Below are positions 2,723 through 33,267 of a stretch of 35,827 nucleotides of DNA, piece after piece (position 1 is the first letter of the stretch; the number at the start of each line of letters is the position of its first letter). Below the pieces are notes generated by a model. The model had not been told where the DNA came from, did no database searches, and worked only from the letters and a program-made list of their open reading frames with translations. The DNA lies in the NCBI GenBank assembly GCA_022340405.1, contig JAJDOA010000219.1, positions 1 through 35,827 of the forward strand. The letters run 5' to 3'. The stretch is from Desulfobacteraceae bacterium (GTDB lineage: Bacteria > Desulfobacterota > Desulfobacteria > Desulfobacterales > JAJDOA01). A program made the position numbers and the translations under genes.

Positions 2723-3865
2723 CTATTCCTTCGGCTCGCCCATCACCTCGGCGAACATGTCCATGTCCCACAACCGGCCGGCAGCGATGTTCTGGCGGAA
2801 CTTGATGAAGTCGATCGTGTCGCTTCCGGTGATCTTCTTGCTGTTGAAGGCGCCGAAGCCCAGGAACGCCTCGCCGCTCATGTTTGCGGCGAGCCAATGG
2901 CGGTTGCCGTTTTTGACGACATCCCAGAAGAATTTCTTTTTCTGGCGAACGCCCTCCACGGATTTGATCAGACACCCCGGGAACAGATTGGCAAAACGCC
3001 AGACGATCTTGTCCACCTCGGCATCCAGAAGCTCGAAATCGGCCTGGGGCTGGTGTTCCTTGACCAGCGCACGGGCCTCCTTGAAGGCGTCTCCGGTTTT
3101 GTATTCACCAAAGACGATCTCACCGTCCTCGACGTACTTGTCGGTCACCACCATCGGGTTTCGGACCCACTGACCGTCCACCTTCAATACCGGCACGCAC
3201 TTGGTGATCAGGCCCTTCATCTTCGCCTTGTAAGCCGTCCACATCTCGCAACTGACGCAGTTCCACATGGCGTCTTCGATTCCCAGATACCAGGGTAGAA
3301 AATCCGTGGATCCGCCGTCGGGCGCCGACCCGTGCTTGGGTCCCGCCTGGCCGAATATCGCCAGGTCCGAAGAGACGGTGATATCGCAGGCCATGCCGAT
3401 TTCCTGCCCACCGGCCACCCGCATGCCGTTGACCCGGCAGATGGTCGGCTTCTTGCACTGCAAGATAGCGTCCACCATGTGGTTGAACAAATCCATGTAC
3501 TGGCCGTATTCGTCCGGGCGGCGGCTATAGTATTCGCTGTACTCCTTGGTATTGCCTCCGGTGCAGAACGCGAAGGGCCCCGTGGCCGTGAAGATGACGG
3601 CCACCACGCTGCGGTCGTTTCCCGCGTTTTCGAAACCGGCGATCACCCCCTTGACCATATCGGTGGTATAGGAGTTGTACTGCCGGGGGTTGTTCATGCG
3701 GACCCAGGCCGTGTAGAGGCCTTCCACCGCGTTTCCTTCCGGGTCCTTGAGCGGCCGTTTTTCGAAAACGACGTTGGGGGCTTCCTCGTCGGTTCCCCAA
3801 TAGGGGCTGGGATGCAGGTTGTGGTCCTTCAGCTCGTTGTCGCGCGGCATCCAATCTAAGGCCAT
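2723..3865 (-). CDS. bamA: 6-oxocyclohex-1-ene-1-carbonyl-CoA hydrolase (BamA/Oah family)
   Basis: MALDWMPRDNELKDHNLHPSPYWG...VVFEKRPLKDPEGNAVEGLYTAWVRMNNPRQYNSYTTDMVKGVIAGF...AFCTGGNTKEYSEYYSRRPDEYGQYM...CRVNGMRVAGGQEIGMACD...FGQAGPKHGSAPDGGSTDF; characteristic BamA motifs. Start set to the ATG at 3865 rather than 3907. Confidence 0.93.
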   Translation of the reverse strand: MALDWMPRDNELKDHNLHPSPYWGTDEEAPNVVFEKRPLKDPEGNAVEGLYTAWVRMNNPRQYNSYTTDMVKGVIAGFENAGNDRSVVAVIFTATGPFAFCTGGNTKEYSEYYSRRPDEYGQYMDLFNHMVDAILQCKKPTICRVNGMRVAGGQEIGMACDITVSSDLAIFGQAGPKHGSAPDGGSTDFLPWYLGIEDAMWNCVSCEMWTAYKAKMKGLITKCVPVLKVDGQWVRNPMVVTDKYVEDGEIVFGEYKTGDAFKEARALVKEHQPQADFELLDAEVDKIVWRFANLFPGCLIKSVEGVRQKKKFFWDVVKNGNRHWLAANMSGEAFLGFGAFNSKKITGSDTIDFIKFRQNIAAGRLWDMDMFAEVMGEPKE

Positions 3866-3928
3866 GTCGTATCCTCCGTGTTCCTTTCGTATCCTCGTTA
3901 TTATCACCGAATCCGTGCCGGAGTGCCC

Positions 3929-5032
3929 CTAAAAGTCAGGCACCAATACGATCCTCCGGTCCGGCGGCGTGCGGTGAGCCTCCTCGAAAGTCTCCGCAAT
4001 GGTGCTCATGGGTCGGGTCTGAACGAACGGTTCCAACGCCACCTTCCCCGTGAGCACCATCTCCAGCACCTGGGGATAGTACTCCGGCAGACAGCCCCAC
4101 GTACCGATCAACTCGGCATCGAAGGCCATCAAACGGCTGATGGAATACTCCACTTTGGCCATTCCGAAGCCCACAACGATAAGCTTTCCGGTGAAACTGA
4201 GCAGTGCCAGTGCGGTTTCCTGCCCCGGCTTGGTGCCCGTGCACTCGAAAATTTTCCATCCGTACGCCGGCAGGCCGCCCTGCTTGCGTATGGCCTTCAC
4301 TTCCCCGGCCACATCCCGGGGTCCTTTCCCGGTGGCGTCGATCACAAAATCCGCTCCGTAGTCGAGCATCTTCTGCAACCGCTCCTCCACGATGTCCACG
4401 GCGATCACCGTTCGGGCGCCCAGCGCCTTGACCTCCTGGACCATGTACTGCCCCACCCCGCCGACGCCGATGACGATCACGTCGTCGCCGATCTCCAGCT
4501 GTGCGCGTCTTGCGGCCTGAAACGGGGTGGTGGCGGCATCGGCCACCACGGCCAGGTGTTCGAGCGGAATCCCCTGCCGGTCCCGGATCTCGCACAGGTC
4601 GATGCTCGGCACCGGGATATGGCTGGAAAAGCCGCCGTAGATACCGATGCTGTTGCCGGGCATTTTCTGGTTCAGGCAACGGTTTCCCCTGCGCGTCTTG
4701 CAAAGGTGGCACTGCCGGCAGGGCATCACAGCCGGTATCAGCACTTCCTTGCCGACCCAGCGTTCGTCCCCGGCCACCACGGTGCCGGAGATTTCATGGC
4801 CGAGGGTCAGCGGCGGCTTGGAGACCGTGGGCACGCCGTCAAAAAAATAGCCCAGGTCCGTGTGGCAAACTCCGCATCCGGCCACCTTCACGAGAACGTC
4901 GCCGGCACCGAGTTCGGGAACGGGAATCTCGGTCTTCTCCAATCTGCCCGGAGTGACCTCTCCGGTATCCCGGTCGCGCACGGTTGGCTGCACCATTTGC
5001 CAGGTGAGGATCTTGTCAGGAACGTCTCCCAT
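3929..5032 (-). CDS. had: 6-hydroxycyclohex-1-ene-1-carbonyl-CoA dehydrogenase (Had/BamQ-type zinc alcohol dehydrogenase)
   Basis: MDR/Zn-ADH fold: CGVCHTDLGYFFDGVPTVSKPPLTLGHEISG, four-Cys structural Zn CRQCHLCKTRRGNRC, GVGGVGQYMVQ; adjacent to bamA. Confidence 0.88.
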   Translation of the reverse strand: MGDVPDKILTWQMVQPTVRDRDTGEVTPGRLEKTEIPVPELGAGDVLVKVAGCGVCHTDLGYFFDGVPTVSKPPLTLGHEISGTVVAGDERWVGKEVLIPAVMPCRQCHLCKTRRGNRCLNQKMPGNSIGIYGGFSSHIPVPSIDLCEIRDRQGIPLEHLAVVADAATTPFQAARRAQLEIGDDVIVIGVGGVGQYMVQEVKALGARTVIAVDIVEERLQKMLDYGADFVIDATGKGPRDVAGEVKAIRKQGGLPAYGWKIFECTGTKPGQETALALLSFTGKLIVVGFGMAKVEYSISRLMAFDAELIGTWGCLPEYYPQVLEMVLTGKVALEPFVQTRPMSTIAETFEEAHRTPPDRRIVLVPDF

Positions 5033-7008: not shown

Positions 7009-7779
7009 ATGCCCGAGTTGAAGCATCACCGCGTGGAAAGCACGGACGGGGTGGCCCGGATTACGCTCAACCGCCCCAAACACAACGTCTTCAACATCGA
7101 AATGCTGCAGGAATTCAACGCGCTGATGGACACGCTGGCCGAGGACACGGAACTCAAGTGCGTCGCCGTCTTTGGAGAGGGTCCCAGCTGGTGCGCCGGT
7201 GTGGAAGTGGGGGATCACAAGCCGGAACTGGCCCCGGATATGATCGCCACTTTTGCCGGCATGTTCGAACGAATCCATGCGCTGGAGGTACCGCTGATTG
7301 CCGCCGTTCACGGAAACTGCCTCGGCGGCGGCATGGAGCTGGCCATCGCATGCGACATCGTCATCGCGTCCGGGAAGGCCAAATTCGGGCAGCCGGAGAT
7401 CAAACTGGGATTCTTCCCCCCCTACGCGGCGGTTCGCCTGCCTGAACTGGTGGGTCCGGCCAAGGCAGTGGAAATCTGCACCACCGGCCGCATCTATTCA
7501 GCGGAACTGGGCCGATCGCTGGGTTTCGTAAGCCAGGTGGCGGAGCCCGAAGCCTTCGAGGCGGAGGTGGAGAAAACCATCGGTGAGATCGCGGCCTGCA
7601 GTCCGCTGATCGTACGGATGAACAAGCGGGCGGTCAACCGGTGCAGGGGGTTGGCCTTCCCCGCAGCCATGAAGGAGATCAACAGCGCCTTTCTCGACGA
7701 ACTGATGAAGACCGAGGACACGCTGGAGGGAATCGCCAGCTTCGAGGAAAAACGGCGGCCGGTGTGGAAAAATCGCTGA
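7009..7779 (+). CDS. dch: Enoyl-CoA hydratase family; probable cyclohexa-1,5-diene-1-carbonyl-CoA hydratase (Dch/BamR-like)
   Basis: GNCLGGGMELAIACD...KFGQPEIKLGFFPPYAAVRLPELVG; C-terminus LDELMKTEDTLEGIASFEEKRRPVWKNR resembles characterized Dch; context with had and bamA. Confidence 0.75.
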   Translation: MPELKHHRVESTDGVARITLNRPKHNVFNIEMLQEFNALMDTLAEDTELKCVAVFGEGPSWCAGVEVGDHKPELAPDMIATFAGMFERIHALEVPLIAAVHGNCLGGGMELAIACDIVIASGKAKFGQPEIKLGFFPPYAAVRLPELVGPAKAVEICTTGRIYSAELGRSLGFVSQVAEPEAFEAEVEKTIGEIAACSPLIVRMNKRAVNRCRGLAFPAAMKEINSAFLDELMKTEDTLEGIASFEEKRRPVWKNR

Positions 7780-8003: not shown

Positions 8004-10040
8004 ATGGCAAAACTGAGCAAAGTCGGCGTCGTCGGTGCAGGCAACATGGGCAGCGGAATCGCCCAGAAATTCGCCCAGGAGGGGATTCCCGTGGTCATGG
8101 TGGACATCCGCGAAGAATTCGTTCAGCGCGGCTTGGAAACCATTCGTGGACTCCTCGAACAGGCCGTGGAGAGAAAGATTTTCCGCCCCGATCAGATGGA
8201 GGCGATCCTATCGCGCATCACCGGCGCCACCGACCGGAAGATGCTCGCGGATGCGGACCTGGTGGTGGAGGCCGTCTTCGAAGACCGTGACGTCAAGTCC
8301 GAGCTGTTTCGAGAATTGGATGCCATCTGTTCGGACCGCACCGTTCTGGCCACCAACACGTCCAGCTTCACGGTGGAGGAATTCGCCCTTCAGACCCGGC
8401 GGCCAGACCGTTTCGTAGGGCTCCACTACTTCTACCACCCCGCCAAGAATCGCCTGCTGGAAATCATTCCCCACGCCGGGACCTCGGAAGAAACCGTGGA
8501 TTTCTGCATGCTGGCGGCCAAACTGCACGGCAAGACCGCCATCCGGGTGGCGGACGCGCCCGGTTTCGCCGTCAATCGGTTCTTTGTCCCATTCCTCAAC
8601 GAAGCCGGTCGCATGCTGGAAGAGAAAGTGGCCGACATCCCCACCATCGAGGCCGCTGCCAAAAAGGCCTTTCGCATCGGAATGGGACCGTTCGAACTGA
8701 TGAACGTGACCGGCGTACCCATCACCGCGCACGCCACCCGGGCGCTGGCGGAAAAACTGGGCCCCTTTTACGGCACGGCCGACATCATCGCCCGCCAGGT
8801 GGAAAAAAAGGAAAACTGGGATCTATCCGGCGATCCGGACGAATCTCTTTTCGCACCCGTGATGGACCGGCTCTATGGTGTGGCTCTCGGTGTCGCGGCC
8901 GCCCTGGTGGACGAGACGGTGGCCACACGCGAAGATACCGACCGGGGCGCTAAAATCGGACTGCGTTGGGCACAGGGGCCCTTCGAGATCATGAACCGCA
9001 TCGGCATCGAAGAGACGTGCCGGGTGGTGCAGGCGATCGCAGACCGGTATGCCGACTTCTCCTTTCCCGAAGGCCTCCGCAAGCAACGCGAGGCCGGAAA
9101 GCCCTTCACTTTCAACTGGGTGGACCTCGAGATACGCAACGGGATCGCCACCATCACCGTGAATCGGCCCGAGGCGATGAACGCCCTCAACGAGGAGGTG
9201 GTGGAACAGCTCGACCGGCGGTTCACGGAGGCCGAAAACCATCCCGATGTCCGCGCCATCGTTTTCCGGGGTGCGGGAAAGGCCTTCGTTGCCGGCGCCG
9301 ACATCCGGTTCTTCGTCAAGAACATCCAGGCTGGCGATGTCGAACGGAACGTCGCCTTTGCGCGTCGGGGGCACAAGGTGCTGCTGCGGATCGAAAACAG
9401 CGCCAAGCCGACCATCGCGGTGCTGGACGGGCTGTCGCTGGGCGGTGGCAGCGAGATGGCTCTGGCCTGCCAGGCCATCGTGGCCACCGACGCCGGCTCC
9501 ATGGGTTTTCCGGAGTCCGGCATCGGCATCTACCCCGGCCTGGGGGGCATGCTGCGGCTCAGCCGGCAGGTCGGCCCGGAACTGGCACGCTACTACGTAT
9601 TCACCGGCGCCCCCATCAACGCACAGGAGGCAGAGGCACTGGGCATCGTGCATCGGCGTGTGGGTCCGGAGGCGGTCGACGCTGCCGTTTCCGAACTGGC
9701 CTCCGCACCGCCGGACAAATACCGGAAACGGGACATCCCCCAGTCGTTTGCCCCGTTTGCACAGGCGTTCACAACGGAAAACGTGCAACGGCTGTTGACC
9801 GGAGAACCGCCGGAAGGGGTGGACGAGAAGATCGCCGCCAGGATCTCCAAGACGGTGGGGTACAAGTCCCCTCTGGCGCTGCGGATGACCGACGAGATCA
9901 TCACAGCGCAGCTGGATCGGAACATTCCGGAAGGCGTGGAAATCGAGCTCGGGCGACTGGCGGAGTGCTTCGGCTCGGAAGACGCCCTGGAGGGGTTGAC
10001 CTCCCTGGGCAGGAAGCGCCCGGAATTCAAAGGTCGATGA
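8004..10040 (+). CDS. Bifunctional 3-hydroxyacyl-CoA dehydrogenase / enoyl-CoA hydratase (HAD N-terminal, crotonase C-terminal)
   Basis: N-terminal KVGVVGAGNMGSGIAQKFAQEG Rossmann and HHxFxP-like LHYFYHPAKNRLLEIIP; C-terminal NRPEAMNALNEEVV...GAGKAFVAGADIRFF...LGGGSEMALAC. Confidence 0.93.
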   Translation: MAKLSKVGVVGAGNMGSGIAQKFAQEGIPVVMVDIREEFVQRGLETIRGLLEQAVERKIFRPDQMEAILSRITGATDRKMLADADLVVEAVFEDRDVKSELFRELDAICSDRTVLATNTSSFTVEEFALQTRRPDRFVGLHYFYHPAKNRLLEIIPHAGTSEETVDFCMLAAKLHGKTAIRVADAPGFAVNRFFVPFLNEAGRMLEEKVADIPTIEAAAKKAFRIGMGPFELMNVTGVPITAHATRALAEKLGPFYGTADIIARQVEKKENWDLSGDPDESLFAPVMDRLYGVALGVAAALVDETVATREDTDRGAKIGLRWAQGPFEIMNRIGIEETCRVVQAIADRYADFSFPEGLRKQREAGKPFTFNWVDLEIRNGIATITVNRPEAMNALNEEVVEQLDRRFTEAENHPDVRAIVFRGAGKAFVAGADIRFFVKNIQAGDVERNVAFARRGHKVLLRIENSAKPTIAVLDGLSLGGGSEMALACQAIVATDAGSMGFPESGIGIYPGLGGMLRLSRQVGPELARYYVFTGAPINAQEAEALGIVHRRVGPEAVDAAVSELASAPPDKYRKRDIPQSFAPFAQAFTTENVQRLLTGEPPEGVDEKIAARISKTVGYKSPLALRMTDEIITAQLDRNIPEGVEIELGRLAECFGSEDALEGLTSLGRKRPEFKGR

Positions 10041-10371: not shown

Positions 10372-12234
10372 ATGCACAAATTACTCACCGATAGCCCCGG
10401 CCAGAAGATGCTGATGCTCGGCAACGAGGCCATCGCCCGCGGCGCCGTGGAAGCCGGCGTTGCGATGGCCAGCACCTATCCGGGAACGCCGTCATCGGAA
10501 ATCTCACTCAATTTCTTTCAGATGTCCCGGGAAAGCGAACTGTATTTCCAATACAGCACCAACGAGAAAGTCGCCATGGAGGTGGCCGCGGCTGCGGCCA
10601 ATTCCGGCGTACGCAGCATGTGCATCATGAAGCACGTCGGCCTGAACGTGGCCGCCGACGCCCTCATGACCCTGGCCTACGTGGGGGTGCGCGGAGGAAT
10701 GGTCATCATCACGGCGGACGACCCCTCCATGTTCTCCAGCCAGAACGAGCAGGACAACCGGTACTACGGAAAGCTCTCCGGTCTGCCGGTGGTGGAACCC
10801 TCCTCGGTGGAGGAGGCCAAAGAACTGGTGGGGTATGCCTTCGATCTTTCCGAGCAGTTGCAGGAGCCGGTGCTGTTCCGCACCACAACACGGATCAACC
10901 ACAGCTCCGCTTTCGTCACCCTCGGCGCGTTGAAACCGCCGGAAACCAAAGGCGATTTCCAGAAGGATCCGTTCCGTTACGTGACCGTTCCGGCAGTGGC
11001 CCGGAGGCTTCACGTCAAACTGCTGGAAAACCAGGCCCGGGCCAAGGAGCTATCCGAAGCCTCCCCGTACAACTTTGTCGAGGGCGCAGGCGGCTGGGGC
11101 ATTTTCTGCAACGGCGTCAGCTACAGCTATGTATCCGACGCCGTCCGGGATTTGGGCATGCAGGACCGCATTCGTATCTTCCGGATCGGATTCTCCCACC
11201 CCCTGCCCGAGCAGAAGATCAAGGCCTTTCTCGGCGAATGCGAAAAAGTTCTCGTGGCCGAAGAGGGAGAGCCGTTCATGGAGGAGGCCGTCAAAGCCTT
11301 TGCTCAGGAAGCGGGGCTCACACTTCCGATCCGGGGCAAGGCCGACGACCTCTTCTCCCGTCTGTACGAGTTCGATCCGGCCATGGTGAGGAAAACCATC
11401 GCATCCTATTTCGGCATCGACTACGCCGCACCCCCGGCGATTGATGTCCAGGACGTCCCGGATATTCCCATGCGGCCGCCGAACCTCTGCGCGGGCTGTT
11501 CCCATCGCGCCACCTACTATGCGGTGAAAAAGGCCGCAGAGGGAATGGAGACGATCTATCCCACGGATATCGGATGCTACACGCTGGGATTTTTGCCGCC
11601 CCTTTCCATGGGCGACTTTCTCATCTGCATGGGATCCTCGGTGGGCACCTCCTGTGGGTTCTCCCAGGCAACCGACCGGAAGGTGGTGGCCTTCATCGGC
11701 GATTCCACTTTTTTTCACTCGGGCATTCCCGGCCTGATCAATGCGGTGTTCAACGGACACAATCTCACCCTGGTGATCCTTGACAACGGCACAACCGCGA
11801 TGACCGGCCACCAGCCCCATCCGGGCGTGGACATGTCCCAACTGCAGATGGAGGGCTACGGGCGCGTTTCCATCGAGGCCGTGGTGCGCGCCGTGGGCGT
11901 CCGCCATGTGACGGTCATTCGTCCCTTCAAGGTCAAGAAAAGCATCGAACAGATCCGGGAGGCGCTGGCCTTCGACGGTGTTTCCGTCATCATCTCCCAG
12001 GAGCCTTGTGCACTGTACGCCAAGGGCCTCAAGCTGTTGAAGGGCAAACCGTTCACCGTCAGCGACAAATGCAAAAACCACAGGGATTGCGTCAACGATC
12101 TGGCCTGCCCGGCCTTCTATATCCAGGACGACCGGGTGCACATCGATGCCGATCTGTGCGTAGGATGCGCGGTATGCGCGCAAATCTGCCCGGAAAACGC
12201 CATACGGCCCGTAAAGATCGAAAAGACGGCCTGA
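10372..12234 (+). CDS. iorA: Indolepyruvate:ferredoxin oxidoreductase alpha subunit
   Basis: LMLGNEAIARGAVEAGVAMASTYPGTPSSE; CAGCSHRATYYAVKKA; TPP motif GDSTFFHSGIPGLINAVFN; C-terminal CVGCAVCAQICPENAI. Confidence 0.93.
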   Translation: MHKLLTDSPGQKMLMLGNEAIARGAVEAGVAMASTYPGTPSSEISLNFFQMSRESELYFQYSTNEKVAMEVAAAAANSGVRSMCIMKHVGLNVAADALMTLAYVGVRGGMVIITADDPSMFSSQNEQDNRYYGKLSGLPVVEPSSVEEAKELVGYAFDLSEQLQEPVLFRTTTRINHSSAFVTLGALKPPETKGDFQKDPFRYVTVPAVARRLHVKLLENQARAKELSEASPYNFVEGAGGWGIFCNGVSYSYVSDAVRDLGMQDRIRIFRIGFSHPLPEQKIKAFLGECEKVLVAEEGEPFMEEAVKAFAQEAGLTLPIRGKADDLFSRLYEFDPAMVRKTIASYFGIDYAAPPAIDVQDVPDIPMRPPNLCAGCSHRATYYAVKKAAEGMETIYPTDIGCYTLGFLPPLSMGDFLICMGSSVGTSCGFSQATDRKVVAFIGDSTFFHSGIPGLINAVFNGHNLTLVILDNGTTAMTGHQPHPGVDMSQLQMEGYGRVSIEAVVRAVGVRHVTVIRPFKVKKSIEQIREALAFDGVSVIISQEPCALYAKGLKLLKGKPFTVSDKCKNHRDCVNDLACPAFYIQDDRVHIDADLCVGCAVCAQICPENAIRPVKIEKTA

Positions 12235-12257: not shown

Positions 12258-12854
12258 ATGGATACGACGCGCTTGATCATTGTGGCAGTGGGCGGCCAGG
12301 GGAATCTCCTGGCATCAAAGGTACTGGGTGAAGCGGCATTGCGGGCCGGCATTCCGGTCCGCATGAGCGAAATCCACGGCATGGCCCAGCGGGGTGGGGT
12401 CGTGGAGTCGGCCATCGTTTTCGGGGATGCACAAAGCACCATCATCTCGGACGGAGAAGCCAACGTGCTGGTGGGGTTCGAACCGTCGGAAACCTTGCGT
12501 GCCGTGGGAAAATGCAACGCCGATACCGTCGTGATCACCAATCTGGCTCCTCTGCCGCCGTTTACCGTGGCGTTGGGAAAGGGTGTCTACCCGGACATCG
12601 ATGATCTCCAGGAACGGATCCGTTCCAAGGTGAAGAAGTTGCTGGCCTTCGACTCCACCGCTCTGGCCCGGAAGGCCGGCAACGTGATGGCCAACAACAT
12701 GGTGCTGCTCGGAGCCCTCCTGCAGACGGGGGTGGTGCCGATGACCGCCGACCAGGTGCGGGAAGCCATCGGCGCCACAACCAAACAGGCCTTTGTGGAC
12801 ACCAACTTGAAGGCCTTCGATCTGGGATACGAGGCCGCGCGGAAAGCCGCCTGA
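12258..12854 (+). CDS. iorB: Indolepyruvate:ferredoxin oxidoreductase beta subunit
   Basis: IIVAVGGQGNLLASKVLGEAALRAG...VRMSEIHGMAQRGGVVES. Confidence 0.93.
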   Translation: MDTTRLIIVAVGGQGNLLASKVLGEAALRAGIPVRMSEIHGMAQRGGVVESAIVFGDAQSTIISDGEANVLVGFEPSETLRAVGKCNADTVVITNLAPLPPFTVALGKGVYPDIDDLQERIRSKVKKLLAFDSTALARKAGNVMANNMVLLGALLQTGVVPMTADQVREAIGATTKQAFVDTNLKAFDLGYEAARKAA

Positions 12855-12938: not shown

Positions 12939-14240
12939 ATGCCTTGGGACGAGAAATTCGAATGCATGCCGGTGGAGGAGCTTCGCAAGTTTCAGTTGGA
13001 AAAGCTGAAGGAGACGGTGGCCTGGGCGTATGAAAAAGTTCCCTTCTACAGGAAAAAGCTGGATGAAAAGGGTATCCAGGCGGGGGACATCCAGAAACTG
13101 GAAGACGTTTCCAAGCTGCCCGTGACCGTCAAAAACGATCTGCGAGACAACTACCCCTTCAAGCTTTGCGCCGTTCCCATGAAGGACGTGGTGCGGGTGC
13201 ACGCCTCCTCGGGCACCACCGGCAAGCCCATCACCGGACCCTACACCGCTGAAGACCTCGACCAGTGGACCGAGTGCATGGCCCGCAATTTCCATGCCGC
13301 CGGGGTACGCTCCGACGACGTCATCCAAAACGCCTACGGATACGGTCTGTTCACCGGGGGACTGGGCTTTCACCAGGGGGCGGGCCGCATCGGCGCCACT
13401 GTGGTCCCCACCAGCTCCGGCATGACCGAGCGACAGATTTCCCTCATGCAGGATTTCGGTGCCACGGTATTGTGCTGCACACCATCCTATGCATTGACCA
13501 TTGCCGAACGAGCCGAGGAAATGGGCGTGGACATGCACAAACTGCCCGTTCGCGTGGGGATTTTCGGTGCGGAACCGTGGACGGTTCAGATGCGTCAGGA
13601 AATCGAGGACCGCTTGGGCATCAAAGCGATGGAAGCCTTTGGGCTTACCGAACTGGGCGGACCCGGCGTTTCCTACGACTGCAAGGAGCAGAACGGACTT
13701 CACATCAACGAAGACCACTACTTGGCCGAGGTGGTGGATCCGGACACCTTCGAGCCGGTGCCCGAGGGAGAAAAGGGAGAGCTGATCTTCACCTCCCTGC
13801 AACGCCGTGCCATGCCCATGATCCGCTACCGCACCAAGGACATCACGCGGCTGCACCGGGAAGCGTGCCCCTGTGGACGGACCTTCGTCAGAATGGAGAA
13901 ACTGTCCGGACGAACCGACGACATGCTCATCATCAGCGGCGTCAACATCTTCCCGTCCCAGATCGAGTCCCTGCTCCTGGACATTCCGGAGGTGGAGCCG
14001 CAGTACGTGCTGGTGGTCCGCAAGAAGGGCTATCTGGACCACTTGACGGTTCGCGTGGAGGCCCGGCGGGAGGTCTATGATGCGGGCCCGGAAAAAGAAG
14101 CAGAAGTGGAGAGGAAAATTGCAGATCACCTCAAAGGCCACATCGGCATCAACATCCGGGTGCGGCTGGTGGAACCCAAGCTCATCGCCCGGAGCGAGGG
14201 AAAAGCCAAGCGGATCCTCGACGAGCGTCCGAAGGAATAG
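12939..14240 (+). CDS. Phenylacetate-CoA ligase (PaaK) family aryl-CoA ligase
   Basis: YEKVPFYRKKLDE, HASSGTTGKPITGPYT, EAFGLTELGGPGVSYDCKEQNGLHINEDHY, GRTDDMLIISGVNIFPSQIE. Confidence 0.93.
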   Translation: MPWDEKFECMPVEELRKFQLEKLKETVAWAYEKVPFYRKKLDEKGIQAGDIQKLEDVSKLPVTVKNDLRDNYPFKLCAVPMKDVVRVHASSGTTGKPITGPYTAEDLDQWTECMARNFHAAGVRSDDVIQNAYGYGLFTGGLGFHQGAGRIGATVVPTSSGMTERQISLMQDFGATVLCCTPSYALTIAERAEEMGVDMHKLPVRVGIFGAEPWTVQMRQEIEDRLGIKAMEAFGLTELGGPGVSYDCKEQNGLHINEDHYLAEVVDPDTFEPVPEGEKGELIFTSLQRRAMPMIRYRTKDITRLHREACPCGRTFVRMEKLSGRTDDMLIISGVNIFPSQIESLLLDIPEVEPQYVLVVRKKGYLDHLTVRVEARREVYDAGPEKEAEVERKIADHLKGHIGINIRVRLVEPKLIARSEGKAKRILDERPKE

Positions 14241-14336: not shown

Positions 14337-15284
14337 ATGAGCCAGGATTCCAACTACCGTCCCCAATCGTTTGCCGTGATCGGTGCGGGCCCGGTGGGAT
14401 GCATCGTGGCGGCGTTTCTGTCCAAAGGCGGACATGAGGTCACACTCTGCGACGTCATTCCCGGTCTGCTCGCACCGGCCATCGACAGGGGAATCGTCCT
14501 GGAAGGCGCGGAAAACCTCCAACAGAAGGTGACCCGGACCTGCAACAGCGTGGACGATTTGGCCGATATTGGCCCGGATGTCATCTTCATCACGGTCAAG
14601 GCCAATGCGCTTCCGTTGATCGCTTCGGCCATCGGCGGGTTCCACAAAGAGGGCATGTACGTGGTCAGCTGGCAAAACGGCATCGACACCGAGCTGGAAA
14701 TCGCCAAGGCATTGGGCAAGGAGCCCACGATGCGGGCGGTGGTCAACTACGGCTGCGGCCTGGCCGGTCCGGCCCACGTGAAGATGCCCTTTCATCACCC
14801 GCCCCACTACATCCAGGAAATGGATCCGGCCGCAGCGGATGCGGCGGTTGCCATCGCCCGTGTGCTCAGTGACTGCGGGCTGACCACCGAACACACGGAT
14901 CACATCATCAACATGGTGTGGCGCAAGAGCATCATGAACGCCTGCATGAATCCCGTCTGCGCCGTGACCGGCCTCACCATGGCTCAGGCCATGGGGGATC
15001 CCATCGTGTTCGGTATCGTCGACGCACTGGCCAAGGAGTGCGTGAAGGTGGCCCGGGCCAACGAAATCGAGGTGGGCTGGGATTTCTACCCGCACGCCAT
15101 GTCCTACATGGGCAACGCCGGCAATCACAAGCCTTCCATGCTGATGGACATCGAAAACCGCCGAAGGACGGAAATCGACTTCATCAACGGTAAATTCGTG
15201 GAATACGGCCAACAGGCAGGCATCGAAACGCCTTACAACAATACCCTGCGATCCCTGGTCAAGGGGCTGGAATCCGGGTTCTGA
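14337..15284 (+). CDS. Ketopantoate reductase (PanE/ApbA) family protein
   Basis: FAVIGAGPVGCIVAAFLSKGGHEVTLCD; TVKANALPLIASAI; MVWRKSIMNACMNPVCAVTG; HKPSMLMDIENRRRTEIDFINGKFVEYGQQAGIETPYN. Confidence 0.9.
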   Translation: MSQDSNYRPQSFAVIGAGPVGCIVAAFLSKGGHEVTLCDVIPGLLAPAIDRGIVLEGAENLQQKVTRTCNSVDDLADIGPDVIFITVKANALPLIASAIGGFHKEGMYVVSWQNGIDTELEIAKALGKEPTMRAVVNYGCGLAGPAHVKMPFHHPPHYIQEMDPAAADAAVAIARVLSDCGLTTEHTDHIINMVWRKSIMNACMNPVCAVTGLTMAQAMGDPIVFGIVDALAKECVKVARANEIEVGWDFYPHAMSYMGNAGNHKPSMLMDIENRRRTEIDFINGKFVEYGQQAGIETPYNNTLRSLVKGLESGF

Positions 15285-15330: not shown

Positions 15331-16137
15331 ATGACCAAAGACCAAGGGAGCCGGGAGCGGCACAACCCACGCCCCATTTATGTCGGTGTCGATGTCGGAG
15401 CGTCACGCACCAAAGCGGTGGTCATGGATCGAGAACGCCGCCTTTTGGGCCGCGCCGTTCGGAAATCGGGAACGGATTTTTCGGAATCCTCCCGGCTGTG
15501 CGTGGAGACGTCGCTGGAAATGGCCGGCGCGTCCGAGAGCGATATCGTCAATGCCGTATCCACCGGCTACGGGCGGAAAAACGTCGCATGCGCAACGGAC
15601 ACCCGAACGGAAATCGGATGTCATGCCCGAGGATGCTACCTCGCTTTCCCCATGGCCATCACCATTATCGACATCGGGGGCCAGGACAACAAAATCATAA
15701 AGCTCGACGCAGAGGGCCGCCGGACGGGGTTCAAAATGAACCGCAAATGCGCGGCGGGAACCGGGGCCTTTCTGGAGGAGATGTCACCTCGCCTGGACGT
15801 TCCGCTGGAGGAGATGAACGGCCTGGCCATGCAGTCCACCGATATGGTGAAGCTGGGAAGCTTCTGCACGGTGTTCTCGGCCACCGAGGTGTTGCAGAAC
15901 ATCCGGGTGGGAAAGCACGTGACCGATATCGTGAAGGGGCTGTTCTTCTCGGTGATCAAGCGCGTGCTCGAGATGGACTCCCTGACGGAGAACGTCGTGA
16001 TGACCGGCGGTGTGGTCGCGCACAACCCGTACCTTGTCGAAATGACCGAAGAAGCCATCGGCAGACGCATATGGGTGCCGGAGTATCCCCAATTGACCGG
16101 TGCCATCGGCGCGGCACTCTACGCCATGCAGGAGTAA
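15331..16137 (+). CDS. BcrA/BadF/HgdC-type ATP-dependent activase (acyl-CoA dehydratase/reductase activase)
   Basis: YVGVDVGASRTKAVVMD, IIDIGGQDNKIIKLD, cluster ligands NRKCAAGTGAFLEEM and LGSFCTVFSATEVLQ, VVMTGGVVAHNPYLVE. Confidence 0.93.
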   Translation: MTKDQGSRERHNPRPIYVGVDVGASRTKAVVMDRERRLLGRAVRKSGTDFSESSRLCVETSLEMAGASESDIVNAVSTGYGRKNVACATDTRTEIGCHARGCYLAFPMAITIIDIGGQDNKIIKLDAEGRRTGFKMNRKCAAGTGAFLEEMSPRLDVPLEEMNGLAMQSTDMVKLGSFCTVFSATEVLQNIRVGKHVTDIVKGLFFSVIKRVLEMDSLTENVVMTGGVVAHNPYLVEMTEEAIGRRIWVPEYPQLTGAIGAALYAMQE

Positions 16138-16267
16138 AACGCGAAATCTGAACCACGAATATCGAAACCGTTTCGAATAACCCGAGATTGAAGAAATCTG
16201 GCCGTTCGAAACAGGCTTGGGTTTCACACCCCAAAAGCCCATCAACCGGAGATTCGGAGGAAAGCCC

Positions 16268-17515
16268 ATGCCGGATGAAAAAAAAGTTGTGCTGCGAAGA
16301 CTGCAATCCGCCAAGGATCTGGGAAAATTCATGGCGGAGTACTACTACGAATTGGACGAGGCCGCCAAAAACGGAAAGCGCAAGATCGCCTGGTGCACCA
16401 GCGTGGGTCCGGCCGAACTGCTGCGGGCCTTGGGGTTTCTGGTCTATTTTCCGGAAACGCACTCGGCCATGCTGGGCTCCACCCGCATGGCCACGGACCT
16501 GATCCCCAAAGCCAACGCCATCGGCTACTCTCCGGACATCTGCTCGTACCTGACGGCCGATATCGGCGCCTACCTGGAGGGGATCTCCCCGCTGGCCAAG
16601 GTGTTCAAGGGCATCGAGGGGCCGCCCCGGCCCGACGTGCTCGTGTACAATACGAACCAGTGCCGCGACGTGCAGGACTGGTTCGAATGGTACGGGACCG
16701 AGTACGGCGTTCCGGTGGTGGGCGTGCAGACCTACCGCAACGTGGGGGAGGTGACCGACGACCACATCATCTCCATCAAGAAGCAGATGGAGGCGCTGGT
16801 GGAGCCCCTCGAAAAGATTGCGGGGGTTCGCTTCGAAAGGGAAAAGCTGCAGGAAGCGGTGCGCTTGTCCCGGAAATGCTCCGATCTGTGGAAGGAGGTC
16901 CTCGACACGGCTTCCGCGGTGCCCTCCCCCATCACCTTCTTTGACGGAACGACGCTGATGGGAGCGGCCGTTGTCGGAAGAGGAACGCAAAAGGCCAACG
17001 ACGTCTACAACATCCTCCTTGAGGAACTCAACGACCGTATCGCGAAAAATGAAGGGGCCATCGAGGAGGAAGGATACCGCCTGTACTGGGACGGTATGCC
17101 GGTCTGGGGTCGGCTGCGGATGCACGCGGAGCTTTTCGCCGGTTTGAAGACCAACGTCCTGGCCTCCACCTACTGCAACAGCTGGATCTTCAGCGCCCTC
17201 GATCCCGCCGCACCCTTCACCAGCATGGCGAGGGCCTACACCGAACTGTTCATCGTTCGCTCGGACGAGTACAAGGAAAAATACATCCGCGAGATGCTCG
17301 AATTTTTCAAGTGCGACGGCATCCTGTACCACGATGCGAAGACCTGTCCCAACAACACCAACTGCCGCTACGGCATGCCGCAGCGGTTGCAAGACGAAAC
17401 CGGAATCCCCAGCGTTACGATCCACGGTGACCTGAACGACCTGCGCCTTCTCTCCGACGAACAGACCAAGACCAACGTGGAGGCGTTCATCGAACAGCTG
17501 GAGGAAAGAAGGTAA
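16268..17515 (+). CDS. 2-hydroxyacyl-CoA dehydratase / benzoyl-CoA reductase subunit B (BcrB/BadE)-like protein
   Basis: KIAWCTSVGPAELLRALGFLVYFPETHSAMLGSTRMATDLIPKA, SPDICSYLTADIGAYLEG, YNTNQCRDVQDWF, RLYWDGMPVWGRLRM, STYCNSW, YHDAKTCPNNTNCRYGMPQRLQDETGIPSVTIHGDLNDLR; 415 aa with 8 Cys. Confidence 0.9.
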   Translation: MPDEKKVVLRRLQSAKDLGKFMAEYYYELDEAAKNGKRKIAWCTSVGPAELLRALGFLVYFPETHSAMLGSTRMATDLIPKANAIGYSPDICSYLTADIGAYLEGISPLAKVFKGIEGPPRPDVLVYNTNQCRDVQDWFEWYGTEYGVPVVGVQTYRNVGEVTDDHIISIKKQMEALVEPLEKIAGVRFEREKLQEAVRLSRKCSDLWKEVLDTASAVPSPITFFDGTTLMGAAVVGRGTQKANDVYNILLEELNDRIAKNEGAIEEEGYRLYWDGMPVWGRLRMHAELFAGLKTNVLASTYCNSWIFSALDPAAPFTSMARAYTELFIVRSDEYKEKYIREMLEFFKCDGILYHDAKTCPNNTNCRYGMPQRLQDETGIPSVTIHGDLNDLRLLSDEQTKTNVEAFIEQLEERR

Positions 17516-17594: not shown

Positions 17595-19673
17595 ATGTTA
17601 GACGCAGTGTTCAAACCCAGGGGCGTGGCGGTCATCGGAGCGTCCTCCAAGGAGCTCCACATCGGCAACCGGGTGATCCGGAACCTGGTGGACTTCGGCT
17701 TCACCGGCGGCATCTATCCCATCAACCCCAAGGCCGACGAGATCCGAGGGTTGAAGGCCTACAAGTCCCTCCTGGACGTCCCGGGGGACGTCGACGTGGC
17801 CCACATGGTCATTCCCGCCAAGTTCGTTCCCATGGCCATGGAGGACTGCGGAAAAAAGGGGGTTCAGCATGTGATCATCAACTCCGGCGGATTCTCGGAG
17901 ACCGGACCGGAGGGAGAGAAGATCGAAAAGGCGTTTCTCGAAGTCGCCGCCAAATATGGCATCCGGGTCTTTGGCCCCAACTGCCAGGGAGTTATCAACA
18001 CCGATCCCGCCTACCGCGCGTATTGCAACTTCACTTTCACCTTTCCGGGCCCCGGAGCCATCTCCATCGTGGCGCTGTCCGGCGGGGTGGCGGAGGTCAT
18101 CCACCAGGGCTTCGCTGCCGCGGGTGTCGGAACCCGCATCTATGCCTCCAACGGCAACGCCTGCGACGTTTCCATTCCTGAAATCATCGACTATCTGGCC
18201 GGTGACGAGGGAACCCGGGTCATCGTGACCTACGTGGAGGGTCTGCGGGAGCCCGCGGCATTTCTGGAGGCCGTTACCAATGCCGCGGCCAGAAAACCCG
18301 TTCTGGCCATGAAAGCCGGCCGGACCGCAGAAGGAGCCAAGGCGGCGGCTTCCCACACCGGAGGATTGGCCAAGGAGGACCTGGCCACCGATCTCATCTT
18401 CGACAGGGCCGGCGCACTGACCTTCACCGATGAGGGGGAGATGATCCAGGCGGCCATCGCGTTCGCCAGCCAGCCCCTTCCGAAGGGAAGCCGGGTGGGC
18501 CTCATCACCAACACCGGCGGCCCGGCGGTGATCGCCACCGACATCCTCGTGGGCGCGGGTCTCACGCTGCCCCCGCTTTCCGATGCCACACAAGCGCGGC
18601 TGAAGGAGACGCTCTTTCCCGAGGCTTCGGTGAAAAACCCTGTGGACGTTCTGGCCACCGGAACGGCCGAGCACTACCGGGCCTGCATGGACGCCATGAT
18701 GGAAGACGACGCTTTCGACGCCGTGCTCGTCCACTTTGTGACGCCCTTTTTCGTGGACACCGACAGCATCGCCCGTGAGATCGCGGAAGTCAATCGGCAG
18801 CGGAAAAAGCCGCTGGTGTGTAACCTCATGACGGATCGAAAGCAATGGACCGAAACGGTGGGCATTCTCAAAGAGGCCGAGGTCCCGTTTTTCGCGCTGC
18901 CCGGAGAAGCCGCTAGAGCCATGGCATCCCTGGTGCGCTACCACAAGATCCAAAGCCGTCCCGCCGGAGAAATCCAGACCTTTACGGAGATTCGGGCCGA
19001 AAAAGCACGCGGCATCCTCGAAAACGCGCAGGCGGCGGGCCGAAACCAACTTGCGGCGGAAGAAGTCTACCGGATCCTGGACGCCTACGGCTTCCCCACG
19101 GCATCGTGGCGAACGGCCGACGATCCGGATGCAGCGGCGAAGGCGGCCGAAGAGATCGGATTTCCCGTGGTACTCAAGGCGGACGCGGCTTCCGTGCTGC
19201 ATAAAAGCGACATGGGGGGCGTGGCCGTGAACCTGGCCGATGCCGATGCCGTTCGTGAGGCGGCCGAACGGATGCAGTCCAACATCGATGCCGACGACTT
19301 GCGGTTTTTCGTCCAGGCGTTCGTACCCGACGGACTGGAGGTCATCCTGGGCGCCAAGTCCGAGCCGGGCCTCGGGCATCTGTTGATGTTTGGTCTGGGA
19401 GGAATCTTCGTGGAGGTGCTCAAGGATGTCGTCTTCCGACTGACGCCGGTCACGGACGCCGAGGCCGGGCGGATGCTGGAGGACATCACCGGGGCACCCC
19501 TGCTGGAGGGCGTCCGCGGACAGAAAGGGGTGGACAGGGCGGCTCTGGCGTCGTTGATCCAGCGGCTCTCCCGCCTGGTATCCGACCTGCCGGAGATCGC
19601 CGAAATGGACCTAAACCCGGTGAAGGCGCTTTCCGACCGCGTCGTCGTGGTGGATGCGCGCATCGCACTGTGA
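17595..19673 (+). CDS. ADP-forming acyl-CoA synthetase (fused alpha+beta, Acd/acetate-CoA ligase type)
   Basis: Start ATG 17595: MLDAVFKPRGVAVIGASSKELHIGNRVIRNL; GPNCQGVINTDP; AAASHTGGLA; C-terminal ATP-grasp GFPVVLKADAASVLHKSDMGGVAVNL and EMDLNPVKAL. Confidence 0.92.
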   Translation: MLDAVFKPRGVAVIGASSKELHIGNRVIRNLVDFGFTGGIYPINPKADEIRGLKAYKSLLDVPGDVDVAHMVIPAKFVPMAMEDCGKKGVQHVIINSGGFSETGPEGEKIEKAFLEVAAKYGIRVFGPNCQGVINTDPAYRAYCNFTFTFPGPGAISIVALSGGVAEVIHQGFAAAGVGTRIYASNGNACDVSIPEIIDYLAGDEGTRVIVTYVEGLREPAAFLEAVTNAAARKPVLAMKAGRTAEGAKAAASHTGGLAKEDLATDLIFDRAGALTFTDEGEMIQAAIAFASQPLPKGSRVGLITNTGGPAVIATDILVGAGLTLPPLSDATQARLKETLFPEASVKNPVDVLATGTAEHYRACMDAMMEDDAFDAVLVHFVTPFFVDTDSIAREIAEVNRQRKKPLVCNLMTDRKQWTETVGILKEAEVPFFALPGEAARAMASLVRYHKIQSRPAGEIQTFTEIRAEKARGILENAQAAGRNQLAAEEVYRILDAYGFPTASWRTADDPDAAAKAAEEIGFPVVLKADAASVLHKSDMGGVAVNLADADAVREAAERMQSNIDADDLRFFVQAFVPDGLEVILGAKSEPGLGHLLMFGLGGIFVEVLKDVVFRLTPVTDAEAGRMLEDITGAPLLEGVRGQKGVDRAALASLIQRLSRLVSDLPEIAEMDLNPVKALSDRVVVVDARIAL

Positions 19674-19722: not shown

Positions 19723-21267
19723 ATGACCTGCTGGATGAACCTCGGACAGCACCTGAAAGTCAATGCAAAGAAATATCCGGAGACTGTCGCCCTCAGAGAC
19801 GCCAAGCGCAGCTTCACCTATCCGGAAACCAACCGGAGAGTGAACCGTCTCGCCCACAGCCTGGAAGCTCTCGGCCTGCAAAAGGGCGAAAAGGTTGCGG
19901 TGCTCCTGGAAAACAGCATCGAAATCGTCGAACTCTACCTGGCCACGGCCAAGATGGGCCTGGTGATCGTACCCATCAACTTCCGCCTGGTGGGTAGGGA
20001 GATCGAGTACATCGTAAACAACTCCGATGCACGGGCCTTTGTGGTCCACGACGAGTTCACCGCCGAGGTGGACTCCATCAAGCCAGAGCTGACCAACGTG
20101 GACGCGGACCATTACGTGGTGGTCGGCCAGCCGATCGAGGGGTACCGGGAGTACGAGGATTTCATACGCGAGGCGGATGACACAGAGCCCGAGGTTGCGG
20201 TGGATTCCAGGGATCCATGGATTCTGATCTACACCTCCGGAACGACGGGAAAACCCAAGGGTGTCGTTCGATCGCACGAGTCCCACATTTCCTTCTATCT
20301 GATCAATGCCATCGACTTCGGGTTCCACGAAAACGACGTCTGCCTGAACGTGATGCCCTTGTGCCATATCAACTCCACCTTCTTCACTTTCACATTCACC
20401 TACATCGGGGCCACGGTGGTGATCCATCCGGCACGCTCCTTTCGCCCCGATGAAATCCTGGAGATCATCGAAGGGGAAAAGATCACATTCATCTCGCTGA
20501 TTCCCACCCACTACAACCTCATCCTCAACACCAGCGAGGAAGCCCGCCAGAGGGATCGCAGCTCGATCCGCAAACTACTGTGCTCCTCCGCGCCGGCGCG
20601 AAAGAGCATGAAGCTGGCCATCATGGAGTTTTTCCCGGGCGTGGAACTCTACGAAGCTTACGGATCCACAGAGGCCGGTATCGTCACCGTGCTCAAACCC
20701 GAGGACCAGATGCGCAAGCTTGGATCCATCGGCTACGAGTCGCTGGGCACGGATTTCGTCAAGATCCTGGGACTCGACAAGAAGGAGTTGGGGGTCGGGG
20801 AGGTGGGCGAGCTCTATTCCCGGGGCCCGATGCTTTTCGACGAATACTACAAACTTCCGGAAAAGACCGCCGAAGCCTTCGCGGGGGAATGGTTTTCCGC
20901 CGGCGACATGGCCGTAAAGGACGAGGACGGCTTCTACCAGATCGTGGACCGCAAAGACAACATGATCATCACCGGCGGGGAGAACGTCTACCCCAGCGAG
21001 GTGGAGGAAGTCATCGGCAGCATGCCGGAGGTTTTCGACGTGGCCGTCATCGGGGTTCCGGACGAAAAATGGGGCGAGCGGGTGGTGGCGGTGGTGATTC
21101 CCATGCGGGAGATCGACGAGAGAACCGTCATCGACGGCTGCCGGGGCAAACTGGCAGGCTACAAGATCCCCAAGGAAGTCCGCTTTATCAATCAGGAAGA
21201 GATGCCTCGCACACCCACCGGGAAGATTCTGCACAGGCGGTTGCGGGAAAAATTCGGAAGTCCCTAA
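19723..21267 (+). CDS. AMP-dependent acyl-CoA synthetase/ligase
   Basis: IYTSGTTGKPKGVVRSHESH; YEAYGSTEAGIVT; EWFSAGDMAVKDEDGFYQIVDRKDNMIITGGENVYPSEVE; PRTPTGKILHRRLR. Confidence 0.94.
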   Translation: MTCWMNLGQHLKVNAKKYPETVALRDAKRSFTYPETNRRVNRLAHSLEALGLQKGEKVAVLLENSIEIVELYLATAKMGLVIVPINFRLVGREIEYIVNNSDARAFVVHDEFTAEVDSIKPELTNVDADHYVVVGQPIEGYREYEDFIREADDTEPEVAVDSRDPWILIYTSGTTGKPKGVVRSHESHISFYLINAIDFGFHENDVCLNVMPLCHINSTFFTFTFTYIGATVVIHPARSFRPDEILEIIEGEKITFISLIPTHYNLILNTSEEARQRDRSSIRKLLCSSAPARKSMKLAIMEFFPGVELYEAYGSTEAGIVTVLKPEDQMRKLGSIGYESLGTDFVKILGLDKKELGVGEVGELYSRGPMLFDEYYKLPEKTAEAFAGEWFSAGDMAVKDEDGFYQIVDRKDNMIITGGENVYPSEVEEVIGSMPEVFDVAVIGVPDEKWGERVVAVVIPMREIDERTVIDGCRGKLAGYKIPKEVRFINQEEMPRTPTGKILHRRLREKFGSP

Positions 21268-21302: not shown

Positions 21303-22496
21303 ATGTTGAAAAAAGCATTCATTCCGTACAAAGGCTACTACTCCACACCGTTTGCACGATGGCAGGGAACGCTGGCCAACGAAAACGCCGTCGTTCTGGC
21401 CGCAGCGACCGCAAAGCGGTGGTTTGCCGAAAAGGGCCTGGAGCCCAATCAGGTGGACTACGTGATCCTGGGCATCACCATCGGACAGCCCAAGTGGTTT
21501 TACGGCAGTCCGTGGGCCGCGGCCATGATGGGCGCGGAGGGCACGCCGGGGACCATTCTCAGCCAGGCTTGCACCACTTCGGCCACTTGCATTTTTCAAG
21601 CCGCACTGGGTGTGGAAAACGGCCTGTACGAAATGCCCTATGCCCTGATGACCGACCGCACCTCCAACGGGCCGCATACCATATGGCCCAACCCCAACGG
21701 ACCGGGCGGCGAGGTCATCTCCGAAAACTGGCTGATGGACAATTTCAACCGGGATCCATGGGCGAAAAACGCCATGATCCAGACAGCGGAAAACGTGGCC
21801 AGGGAGGCCGGATTCAGCCGCGAGGAATGCGACGCCGTCGCGTTGCGCCGATACGAGCAGTACGCCGAAAGCCTGGCCGACGATCGAGCGTTCCAGAAAA
21901 CCTATATGATCCCGGTGGAGGTGCAAGTGTCCCGGAAAAAAACGGTGACACTGGAAGCCGACGAGGGCGTGATGCCCACTACCGCGGAGGGCCTTGCCAA
22001 ACTTCGCCCAGTGATACCCGAGGGCTGCCACACCTTCGGCTCCCAGACCCATCCGGCCGACGGCAACTGCGGCGTCATCGTCACCACACGGGACCGGGCA
22101 AAAGAAATCAGCGCCGACCCCGCACGGGACGCCCAGGTGGTCTCCTACGGCTATTCCCGTGCCGAAAAAGGCTACATGGCCAAGGCCGTGGTTCCGGCGG
22201 CCCGAATGGCGCTCGAAAAGGCCGGCATCACCATCGATGACGTGGCGGCCGTCAAGACCCACAACCCCTTTGCCGTCAACGATCTGTACTTCGCCCGCGA
22301 TTTCGGCATCGACGTCAACGGCTTCAACAACTACGGCTCGTCCCTGATCTTCGGTCACCCGCAGGGACCCACCGCCGGGCGCCTCATTGTCGAGGGCATC
22401 GAAGAGGTGGCGGCCAAGGGCGGCGGGTACCTCCTGTGGGCCGGCTGCGCGGCCGGAGACACCGGGGGAGCCTTGGTGGTAAAGGTCGGTTCGTAA
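21303..22496 (+). CDS. Thiolase family acetyl-CoA acetyltransferase
   Basis: Start ATG 21303: MLKKAFIPYKGYYSTPFARWQG; TILSQACTTSATCIFQAALG; GHPQGPTAGRL; GCAAGDTGGALVVK. Confidence 0.88.
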   Translation: MLKKAFIPYKGYYSTPFARWQGTLANENAVVLAAATAKRWFAEKGLEPNQVDYVILGITIGQPKWFYGSPWAAAMMGAEGTPGTILSQACTTSATCIFQAALGVENGLYEMPYALMTDRTSNGPHTIWPNPNGPGGEVISENWLMDNFNRDPWAKNAMIQTAENVAREAGFSREECDAVALRRYEQYAESLADDRAFQKTYMIPVEVQVSRKKTVTLEADEGVMPTTAEGLAKLRPVIPEGCHTFGSQTHPADGNCGVIVTTRDRAKEISADPARDAQVVSYGYSRAEKGYMAKAVVPAARMALEKAGITIDDVAAVKTHNPFAVNDLYFARDFGIDVNGFNNYGSSLIFGHPQGPTAGRLIVEGIEEVAAKGGGYLLWAGCAAGDTGGALVVKVGS

Positions 22497-33093: not shown

Positions 33094-33267
33094 GTCAGTG
33101 CTGTCTCTCCTCAGGGTTTGGGGGTTGGGTCGGTTGCGGCGTGCGGCCGACAAACGTAGTCGCTGCACGCGGTTTCAACAGCCTGTTAGATGTAAAGGAA
33201 ACCGCCCGGTTTGTCAATGTCGGATCGGCCACGGACCGGATCCCAACACCGAAGCCAGGGCCTCCAG

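Follow-up and report, generated by a model that had tools for sequence, protein, structure and literature searches.

A one-gene candidate for (R)-phenyllactyl-CoA dehydratase and its activase in a benzoyl-CoA pathway locus of a Desulfobacteraceae bacterium

The 35,827-nucleotide stretch analysed here (hereafter the window) is contig JAJDOA010000219.1 of the Desulfobacteraceae bacterium assembly GCA_022340405.1, a genome of 4.0 Mb that is 93.7% complete. Among genes linked to the benzoyl-coenzyme A (CoA) pathway, it encodes an ATP-dependent activase followed by one protein with an HGD-D domain, and the question raised by this locus is which reaction such a two-gene system catalyses. The initial annotation favoured a homodimeric aryl-CoA reductase, with a double-cubane cluster protein (DCCP) and an atypical 2-hydroxyacyl-CoA dehydratase as further options. 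It is the third option that proved best supported, HadB being the nearest relative by sequence, profile, residues and fold, and the pair is probably a one-gene (R)-phenyllactyl-CoA dehydratase together with its activase. The protein family, the likeness to HadB, the lack of a partner HGD-D gene, the conserved gene module, its co-occurrence with the benzoyl-CoA pathway and the location of its Desulfococcus multivorans counterparts are direct results; the substrate, the activity, the homodimer and the direction of the reaction are inferred.

A HadB-like protein and its activase

The HGD-D gene runs from an ATG at 16268, which follows GGAGGAAAGCCC and has a clear GGAGG site, to 17515; its product scores 211.6 bits with Pfam HGD-D (PF06050). 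The eight cysteines previously ascribed to a BcrB-like protein lie exactly where they had been listed, at positions 43, 92, 132, 204, 303, 349, 360 and 366. A scan of genome contigs for relatives found 312, of which 80 were kept, and the alignment comprised 110 sequences of about 64% identity or more. They represent a clade with over 100 orthologues, named hosts including Desulfobacterota, Chloroflexota, Spirochaetota and Thermoplasmatota, and matches in 146 relatives drop from 52–77% identity directly to 37%. Within the alignment, C92, C132, C204, C303 and C360 are invariant (110/110), C43 is present in 109/110 members and C366 is mostly kept (98/110), while C349 is unconserved (16/110). The domain's three cluster cysteines correspond to C92, C132 and C360, and the six conserved cysteines of the clade thus comprise three, C43, C204 and C303, beyond the cluster requirement.

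Among NCBIfam profiles, the protein scores 226 bits with HadB, 142 with BcrB (141.8; cut-off 486.6), 87 with BzdO (86.7; cut-off 448.6) and 59.5 with DCCP (cut-off 350), all of these being under the equivalog cut-offs. A sequence search of the PDB ranked HadB (E 3e-54) ahead of MbdO (3e-26), BzdO (5e-22) and DCCP (1e-6). The AlphaFold model, with a mean predicted local distance difference test (pLDDT) score of 95.5, gave Foldseek template-modelling (TM) scores of 0.90 for HadB, 0.87 for MbdO, 0.86 for BzdO, 0.76 for DCCP and 0.66–0.72 for beta-type subunits. With regard to the active site, W42, S45, E63, C92, Y94, C132, V135, Y302, W306 and C360 occupy columns matching HadB, including its Ser, Glu and Tyr, and the BzdO-type His is absent. 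The residues specific to BzdO, whose active-site roles are taken from PMC11971306, are not shared, Val135 standing here for His131 of BzdO and Gly47 for its Trp46. In phylogenetic trees, the clade is strongly supported as a group on the alpha side, separate from the well-supported clades of class I benzoyl-CoA reductase subunits. By profile, sequence, residues and predicted fold, the HGD-D protein is of the alpha type, i.e. predicted to bind the substrate, and nearest to HadB. A search of plasmids for labelled relatives returned matches of 28% identity at most.

The activase gene starts with an ATG at 15331, with GGAG upstream, and ends at 16137. As annotated, its product is a single activase of the HgdC/BcrA type carrying both cluster cysteine motifs, CAAGTG at C140 and CTVF at C179; it scores 202 bits with the TIGR00241 profile (CoA_E_activ), whose cut-off is 125, and its best PDB match is HadI (4eht, E 6.5e-53). 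Other activase-type domains occur in this genome only on another contig, within a single open frame of 1568 codons. This frame (C337:5780-7174) encodes a fused activase protein with two activase domains.

The pair therefore shares with HadBC and HadI of Clostridioides difficile (PDB 3o3m, 4eht) the HGD-D fold, the three cluster cysteines, the HadI-type activator, and the Ser, Glu, Tyr and Trp columns of the active site. It differs from HadBC, to which it is 29% identical, by lacking a HadC-like beta subunit and by its three additional invariant cysteines; furthermore, HadBC belongs to Stickland fermentation, whereas the window pair is linked to the benzoyl-CoA pathway. FldABC of Clostridium sporogenes with its initiator would catalyse the very reaction proposed here, from (R)-phenyllactyl-CoA to cinnamoyl-CoA, but, compared by description, Fld combines two HGD-D subunits with a CoA-transferase, where the window has one HGD-D protein and CoA ligases. 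With BzdNOPQ, MbdONPQ and BcrABCD, the likeness concerns the alpha fold of BzdO and MbdO and the three cysteines; these class I benzoyl-CoA reductases consist of two catalytic-type (B/O and C/N) and two activase-type (A/Q and D/P) subunits, a composition that the window pair does not have.

A single HGD-D gene

The genome of the window holds exactly one HGD-D gene, and the same is true of nine further genomes, these ten being at least 90% complete and spread over eight families. Around the 72 loci with a called gene, the flanking DNA retrieved (up to 10 kb) contained no second HGD-D gene. D. multivorans and D. magnum, whose genomes are closed, encode additional HGD-D proteins exclusively of the DCCP type. 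The possibility that a beta subunit was lost through incomplete assembly was rejected on account of these ten genomes and the two closed ones. Since the ten genomes contain no second HGD-D gene, the protein probably works as a homodimer, and the one-gene enzyme put forward in the initial annotation is upheld to that extent. As the separate beta subunit of an alpha-beta heterodimer is not encoded, the pair is described here as working like HadBC or FldBC and is not counted as an ordinary representative of that group. If it is a homodimer, we know of no earlier example in this radical family of a dehydratase lacking a beta subunit. The enzyme would then bear on the storage of the electron from one turnover to the next, and on the evolutionary derivation of dehydratases, benzoyl-CoA reductases and double-cubane proteins from each other. 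The dehydratases described so far are alpha-beta heterodimers in which the cluster of the beta subunit stores the electron (PMC11574389; PMC8473912). In the clade, the extra invariant cysteines may perhaps replace this electron storage.

The conserved module and the route to benzoyl-CoA

The neighbourhood of the pair is conserved as well. A tblastn count covered the 42 loci flanked on either side by at least 6.5 kb: the activase was found in 37/42, a ketopantoate-reductase family protein (KPR) in 34/42, the AMP-forming ligase in 31/42 and the ADP-forming synthetase in 29/42; IorA (19/42), thiolase and hydratase/dehydrogenase (18/42) and PaaK (17/42) are further members. The AMP-forming ligase is mostly 62–77% identical between phyla, and stays with the HGD-D gene even in archaea. 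The third-ranked PDB match of KPR is 3wfi/3wfj/5x20, a D-2-hydroxyacid dehydrogenase. A small protein with a pair of ACT domains, not seen in the window, accompanies 14/80 loci. At L055:7746-8192, where PF19571 shows the domain pair, and at 2794221-2794673 of D. multivorans, a protein of 149–150 residues lies directly upstream of KPR. The ACT-domain protein is likely an amino-acid sensor, possibly for phenylalanine.

The module is tied to the benzoyl-CoA pathway: among 146 genomes, 47 possess both the clade and Oah or BamB, 5 the clade only, 9 Oah or BamB only, and 85 neither (Fisher p 2.5e-23, in a test that ignores relatedness). With regard to the ring reductase itself, the initial annotation had seen no BcrC, BcrD or BamB-I gene. 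This holds for the window and, as to BcrC/BcrD-type partners, none of which was found genome-wide, for the whole genome; for BamB it does not, a protein encoded on contig C347 matching Geobacter BamB (4z3w) with 1264 bits over 650 residues, far above aldehyde oxidoreductases. In bacteria, it is with class II BamB that the clade occurs, and the two coexist in 38/52 relatives. In Thermoplasmatales archaeon bin45, a one-contig genome, about 20 kb separate the module (activase, HGD-D protein, synthetase, ligase and KPR) from a complete BzdNOPQ. Since the clade is found with either BamB or BzdNOPQ, it seems to feed benzoyl-CoA whichever reductase comes next. In bin45, the set of BzdO, BzdN and two activases adjoins Oah.

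The substrate is suggested by a genome taken to be that of D. multivorans DSM 2059, where orthologues of the window genes are located at 2.789–2.794 Mb (HGD-D protein 70%, activase 66%, KPR 68% and ligase 67% identity) and those of the thiolase and the hydratase/dehydrogenase at 2.776–2.780 Mb. According to the available text of PMC5109826, the proteins of two gene clusters (2.77 Mbp) are formed specifically on phenylacetate and phenylpyruvate, and it is in this area that the module orthologues fall. Part of the cluster, around Dmul_C24740-24870, was linked there to phenyllactate and phenylpyruvate, with growth on phenyllactate reported, and the link of these orthologous genes to both compounds is thus already published. 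This proteogenomic study notes that the strain lacks PadB and PadEFGHI, proposes an oxidation of phenylacetyl-CoA to phenylglyoxylate, and describes as unclear how benzoyl-CoA is reached; in contrast to the reading given here, its available parts describe no dehydratase route via cinnamoyl-CoA.

The hydratase/dehydrogenase of the phenylacetate cluster is 99.7% identical to that of cinnamate/3-phenylpropanoate beta-oxidation, the respective thiolases sharing 73%. Because both clusters harbour near-identical copies of this enzyme, cinnamoyl-CoA as a shared intermediate is the simplest explanation, and phenylpyruvate could reach it via phenyllactyl-CoA by means of a dehydratase of the HGD family. 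The only candidate for such a phenyllactyl-CoA dehydratase in the closed D. multivorans genome is the clade protein. For a benzene-degrading sulfate reducer, a 2026 study (PMC13416013) lists a phenyllactyl-CoA dehydratase candidate encoded by a singular gene, its identity to FldB being 30%. Mandelyl-CoA, lacking a beta hydrogen for elimination, was rejected as a substrate. Of note, the two hydratase/dehydrogenase copies of D. multivorans (2770112-2772154 and 2776549-2778591) belong to adjacent, differently induced operons, and look like the result of a recent duplication or gene conversion.

By analogy with the HadBC/HgdAB family, the following sequence can be proposed. KPR would reduce the arylpyruvate to (R)-phenyllactate, and the two ligase families would activate phenyllactate with CoA. 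The activase homodimer, with one [4Fe-4S] cluster, would inject a single electron at the cost of ATP into the HGD-D homodimer, where phenyllactyl-CoA would be bound beside a [4Fe-4S] cluster with C92, C132 and C360 as ligands. A ketyl radical would form, the alpha-hydroxyl group would be expelled, and cinnamoyl-CoA would be released, with recycling of the electron. Cinnamoyl-CoA would then be hydrated, oxidised and thiolysed into benzoyl-CoA and acetyl-CoA, and the ring of benzoyl-CoA would be reduced by BamB. The pair may thereby fill a missing step in the anaerobic breakdown of phenylalanine and phenylacetate; sulfate reducers such as D. multivorans degrade phenylacetate and phenylpyruvate without the Pad enzymes of denitrifiers, and the module represents a concrete candidate for their route.

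PaaK and IorAB both yield phenylacetyl-CoA, and their presence is odd beside a phenyllactate branch unless one of them supplies it. On the hypothesis that IorAB carries out a reductive carboxylation of phenylacetyl-CoA, all module genes would be connected. We tentatively consider, as a possibility that falls somewhat short of an even chance, a new anaerobic phenylacetate route in which PaaK forms phenylacetyl-CoA, IorAB working backwards carboxylates it to phenylpyruvate, reduction of the latter gives (R)-phenyllactate, and this, after activation, is turned by the homodimeric dehydratase into cinnamoyl-CoA and hence benzoyl-CoA. There is a precedent in rumen microbes, which make phenylalanine from phenylacetate (PMC7356843). 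PadE, the phenylglyoxylate dehydrogenase, exceeds its cut-off in a single genome out of 146, one that does not contain the clade. If true, this more speculative route would explain phenylacetate degradation without Pad enzymes, and would take the place of the Pad pathway in sulfate reducers, in Chloroflexota and in some archaea.

Competing readings and layout of the window

Several points weigh against a one-gene phenyllactyl-CoA dehydratase. The order of the clade relative to HadB, BzdO and MbdO stays open in the trees, the branches being long, and electron storage in a homodimer lacking the beta cluster is so far unexplained. In the available text of PMC5109826, detection of the HGD-D protein itself is not stated, and the mapping of Dmul_C24850-70 to HGD-D protein, activase and KPR may be off by one locus tag. 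Two Anaerolineae genomes contain Oah and the clade, with neither BamB nor another full-length HGD-D protein detected. Finally, the CoA esters of 4-hydroxyphenyllactate, indolelactate and 2-hydroxyisocaproate remain alternative substrates as far as sequence is concerned.

An (R)-2-hydroxyacyl-CoA dehydratase acting on another substrate, be it 4-hydroxyphenyllactyl-CoA, indolelactyl-CoA or a branched-chain 2-hydroxyacyl-CoA, would agree with a sequence that indicates an alpha-type group but leaves the side chain unfixed, and with the fact that IorAB accepts several arylpyruvates. Yet we regard it as unlikely: the clade is strongly associated with the benzoyl-CoA pathway, the D. multivorans orthologues lie in the phenylacetate/phenylpyruvate area and share enzymes with cinnamate degradation, and that strain does not use p-hydroxyphenylpropanoate.

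About equally improbable is the homodimeric ATP-dependent reductase of benzoyl-CoA or dienoyl-CoA favoured in the initial annotation. The fold and the three cluster cysteines are shared with BzdO and MbdO, the clade gene lies beside Oah and Had in the window and in Chloroflexota, and the two Anaerolineae genomes leave a residual opening for such a role, but where BamB is missing the genome may be incomplete or contain assembly errors. The argument that the pair must reduce the ring, no other reductase being present, fails because BamB is encoded in the same genome, and the occurrence of the clade beside BamB or a complete BzdNOPQ led to the rejection of this reading as the principal one. HadB-like residues, profile and fold and a HadI-like activase stand against it too, and the 2-hydroxyacid and CoA-ligase genes of the module would be superfluous for such an enzyme.

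A dehydratase operating in reverse, hydrating cinnamoyl-CoA to phenyllactyl-CoA with IorAB shortening the side chain (alpha-oxidation of phenylpropanoids to phenylacetyl-CoA), would find every required gene present, and the family reaction is reversible; it is nevertheless very improbable, as D. multivorans uses a separate beta-oxidation operon on cinnamate and phenylpropanoate, while the module's clusters are reported as expressed on phenylacetate and phenylpyruvate. No more credible is a homodimeric DCCP with small-molecule reductase activity: DCCPs are homodimeric (PMC11971306), and that of Carboxydothermus hydrogenoformans (6eno) resembles the present system, for which one gene is observed and the homodimer deduced, in having one gene and one activase, and the clade has its extra invariant cysteines, but identity is 19%, the profile score is far below its cut-off, the distal-cubane pattern of the six-cysteine ligand set is not retained (DCCPs have Cys at columns 44 and 303, the clade Thr or Ser at 44), and DCCP-type proteins form a clade of their own, away from the alpha side, with genuine representatives encoded separately in D. 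multivorans and D. magnum.

As to the layout of the window (Table 1), IorA, IorB, PaaK, KPR, activase, HGD-D protein, ADP-forming synthetase, AMP-forming ligase and thiolase follow one another on the same strand, with the hydratase/dehydrogenase fusion upstream of this run and BamA/Oah and Had on the opposite strand. The neighbours named in the initial annotation are thus confirmed for IorA/IorB, the PaaK-type ligase, KPR, Had and BamA/Oah, but not for Dch, which is a generic enoyl-CoA hydratase match only.

Table 1. Features of the window, with the profile or similarity that identifies each
Feature	Coordinates	Strand	Evidence
BamA/Oah, ring-cleaving hydrolase of benzoyl-CoA pathway	2723..3907	-	TIGR03200 560 bits (cut-off 464)
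Gene at 3929..5032	3929..5032	-	TIGR03201 474 bits (cut-off 339)
Enoyl-CoA hydratase, possible cyclohexa-1,5-diene-carbonyl-CoA hydratase (Dch)	7009..7779	+	TIGR03189 145 bits, under cut-off 292
3-hydroxyacyl-CoA dehydrogenase/enoyl-CoA hydratase fusion	8004..10040	+	Pfam 3HCDH_N + ECH; 62% identity to both D. multivorans fusion proteins
IorA, arylpyruvate:ferredoxin oxidoreductase alpha	10372..12234	+	TIGR03336 770 bits (cut-off 651)
IorB, beta subunit	12258..12854	+	TIGR03334 191 bits (cut-off 206); PRK06853.1-3 203 bits (cut-off 238)
PaaK-type phenylacetate-CoA ligase	12939..14240	+	TIGR02155 565 bits, under cut-off 646
KPR, proposed (R)-2-hydroxyacid dehydrogenase (phenylpyruvate to phenyllactate)	14337..15284	+	TIGR00745 189 bits
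Activase, HgdC/HadI type, 268 aa, ATP-dependent electron donor	15331..16137	+	TIGR00241 202 bits; HadI 4eht
HGD-D protein, 415 aa, proposed one-gene (R)-phenyllactyl-CoA dehydratase	16268..17515	+	PF06050 211.6 bits
ADP-forming acyl-CoA synthetase family protein	17595..19673	+	Pfam CoA_binding, Succ_CoA_lig, ATP-grasp_5
AMP-forming CoA ligase, proposed phenyllactate (or aryl acid) ligase	19723..21267	+	PF00501 293 bits
Thiolase, proposed benzoylacetyl-CoA thiolase	21303..22496	+	64-66% identity to both D. multivorans thiolases (cinnamate and phenylacetate clusters)

Elsewhere in the window, the gene of a formate dehydrogenase alpha subunit (30322-33168, minus strand) is split in the list of open reading frames at an in-frame TGA. 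This codon occupies the expected selenocysteine position (NNIDHCARL-U-HSSTVAGL) and, when read through, gives a single frame of 949 codons.

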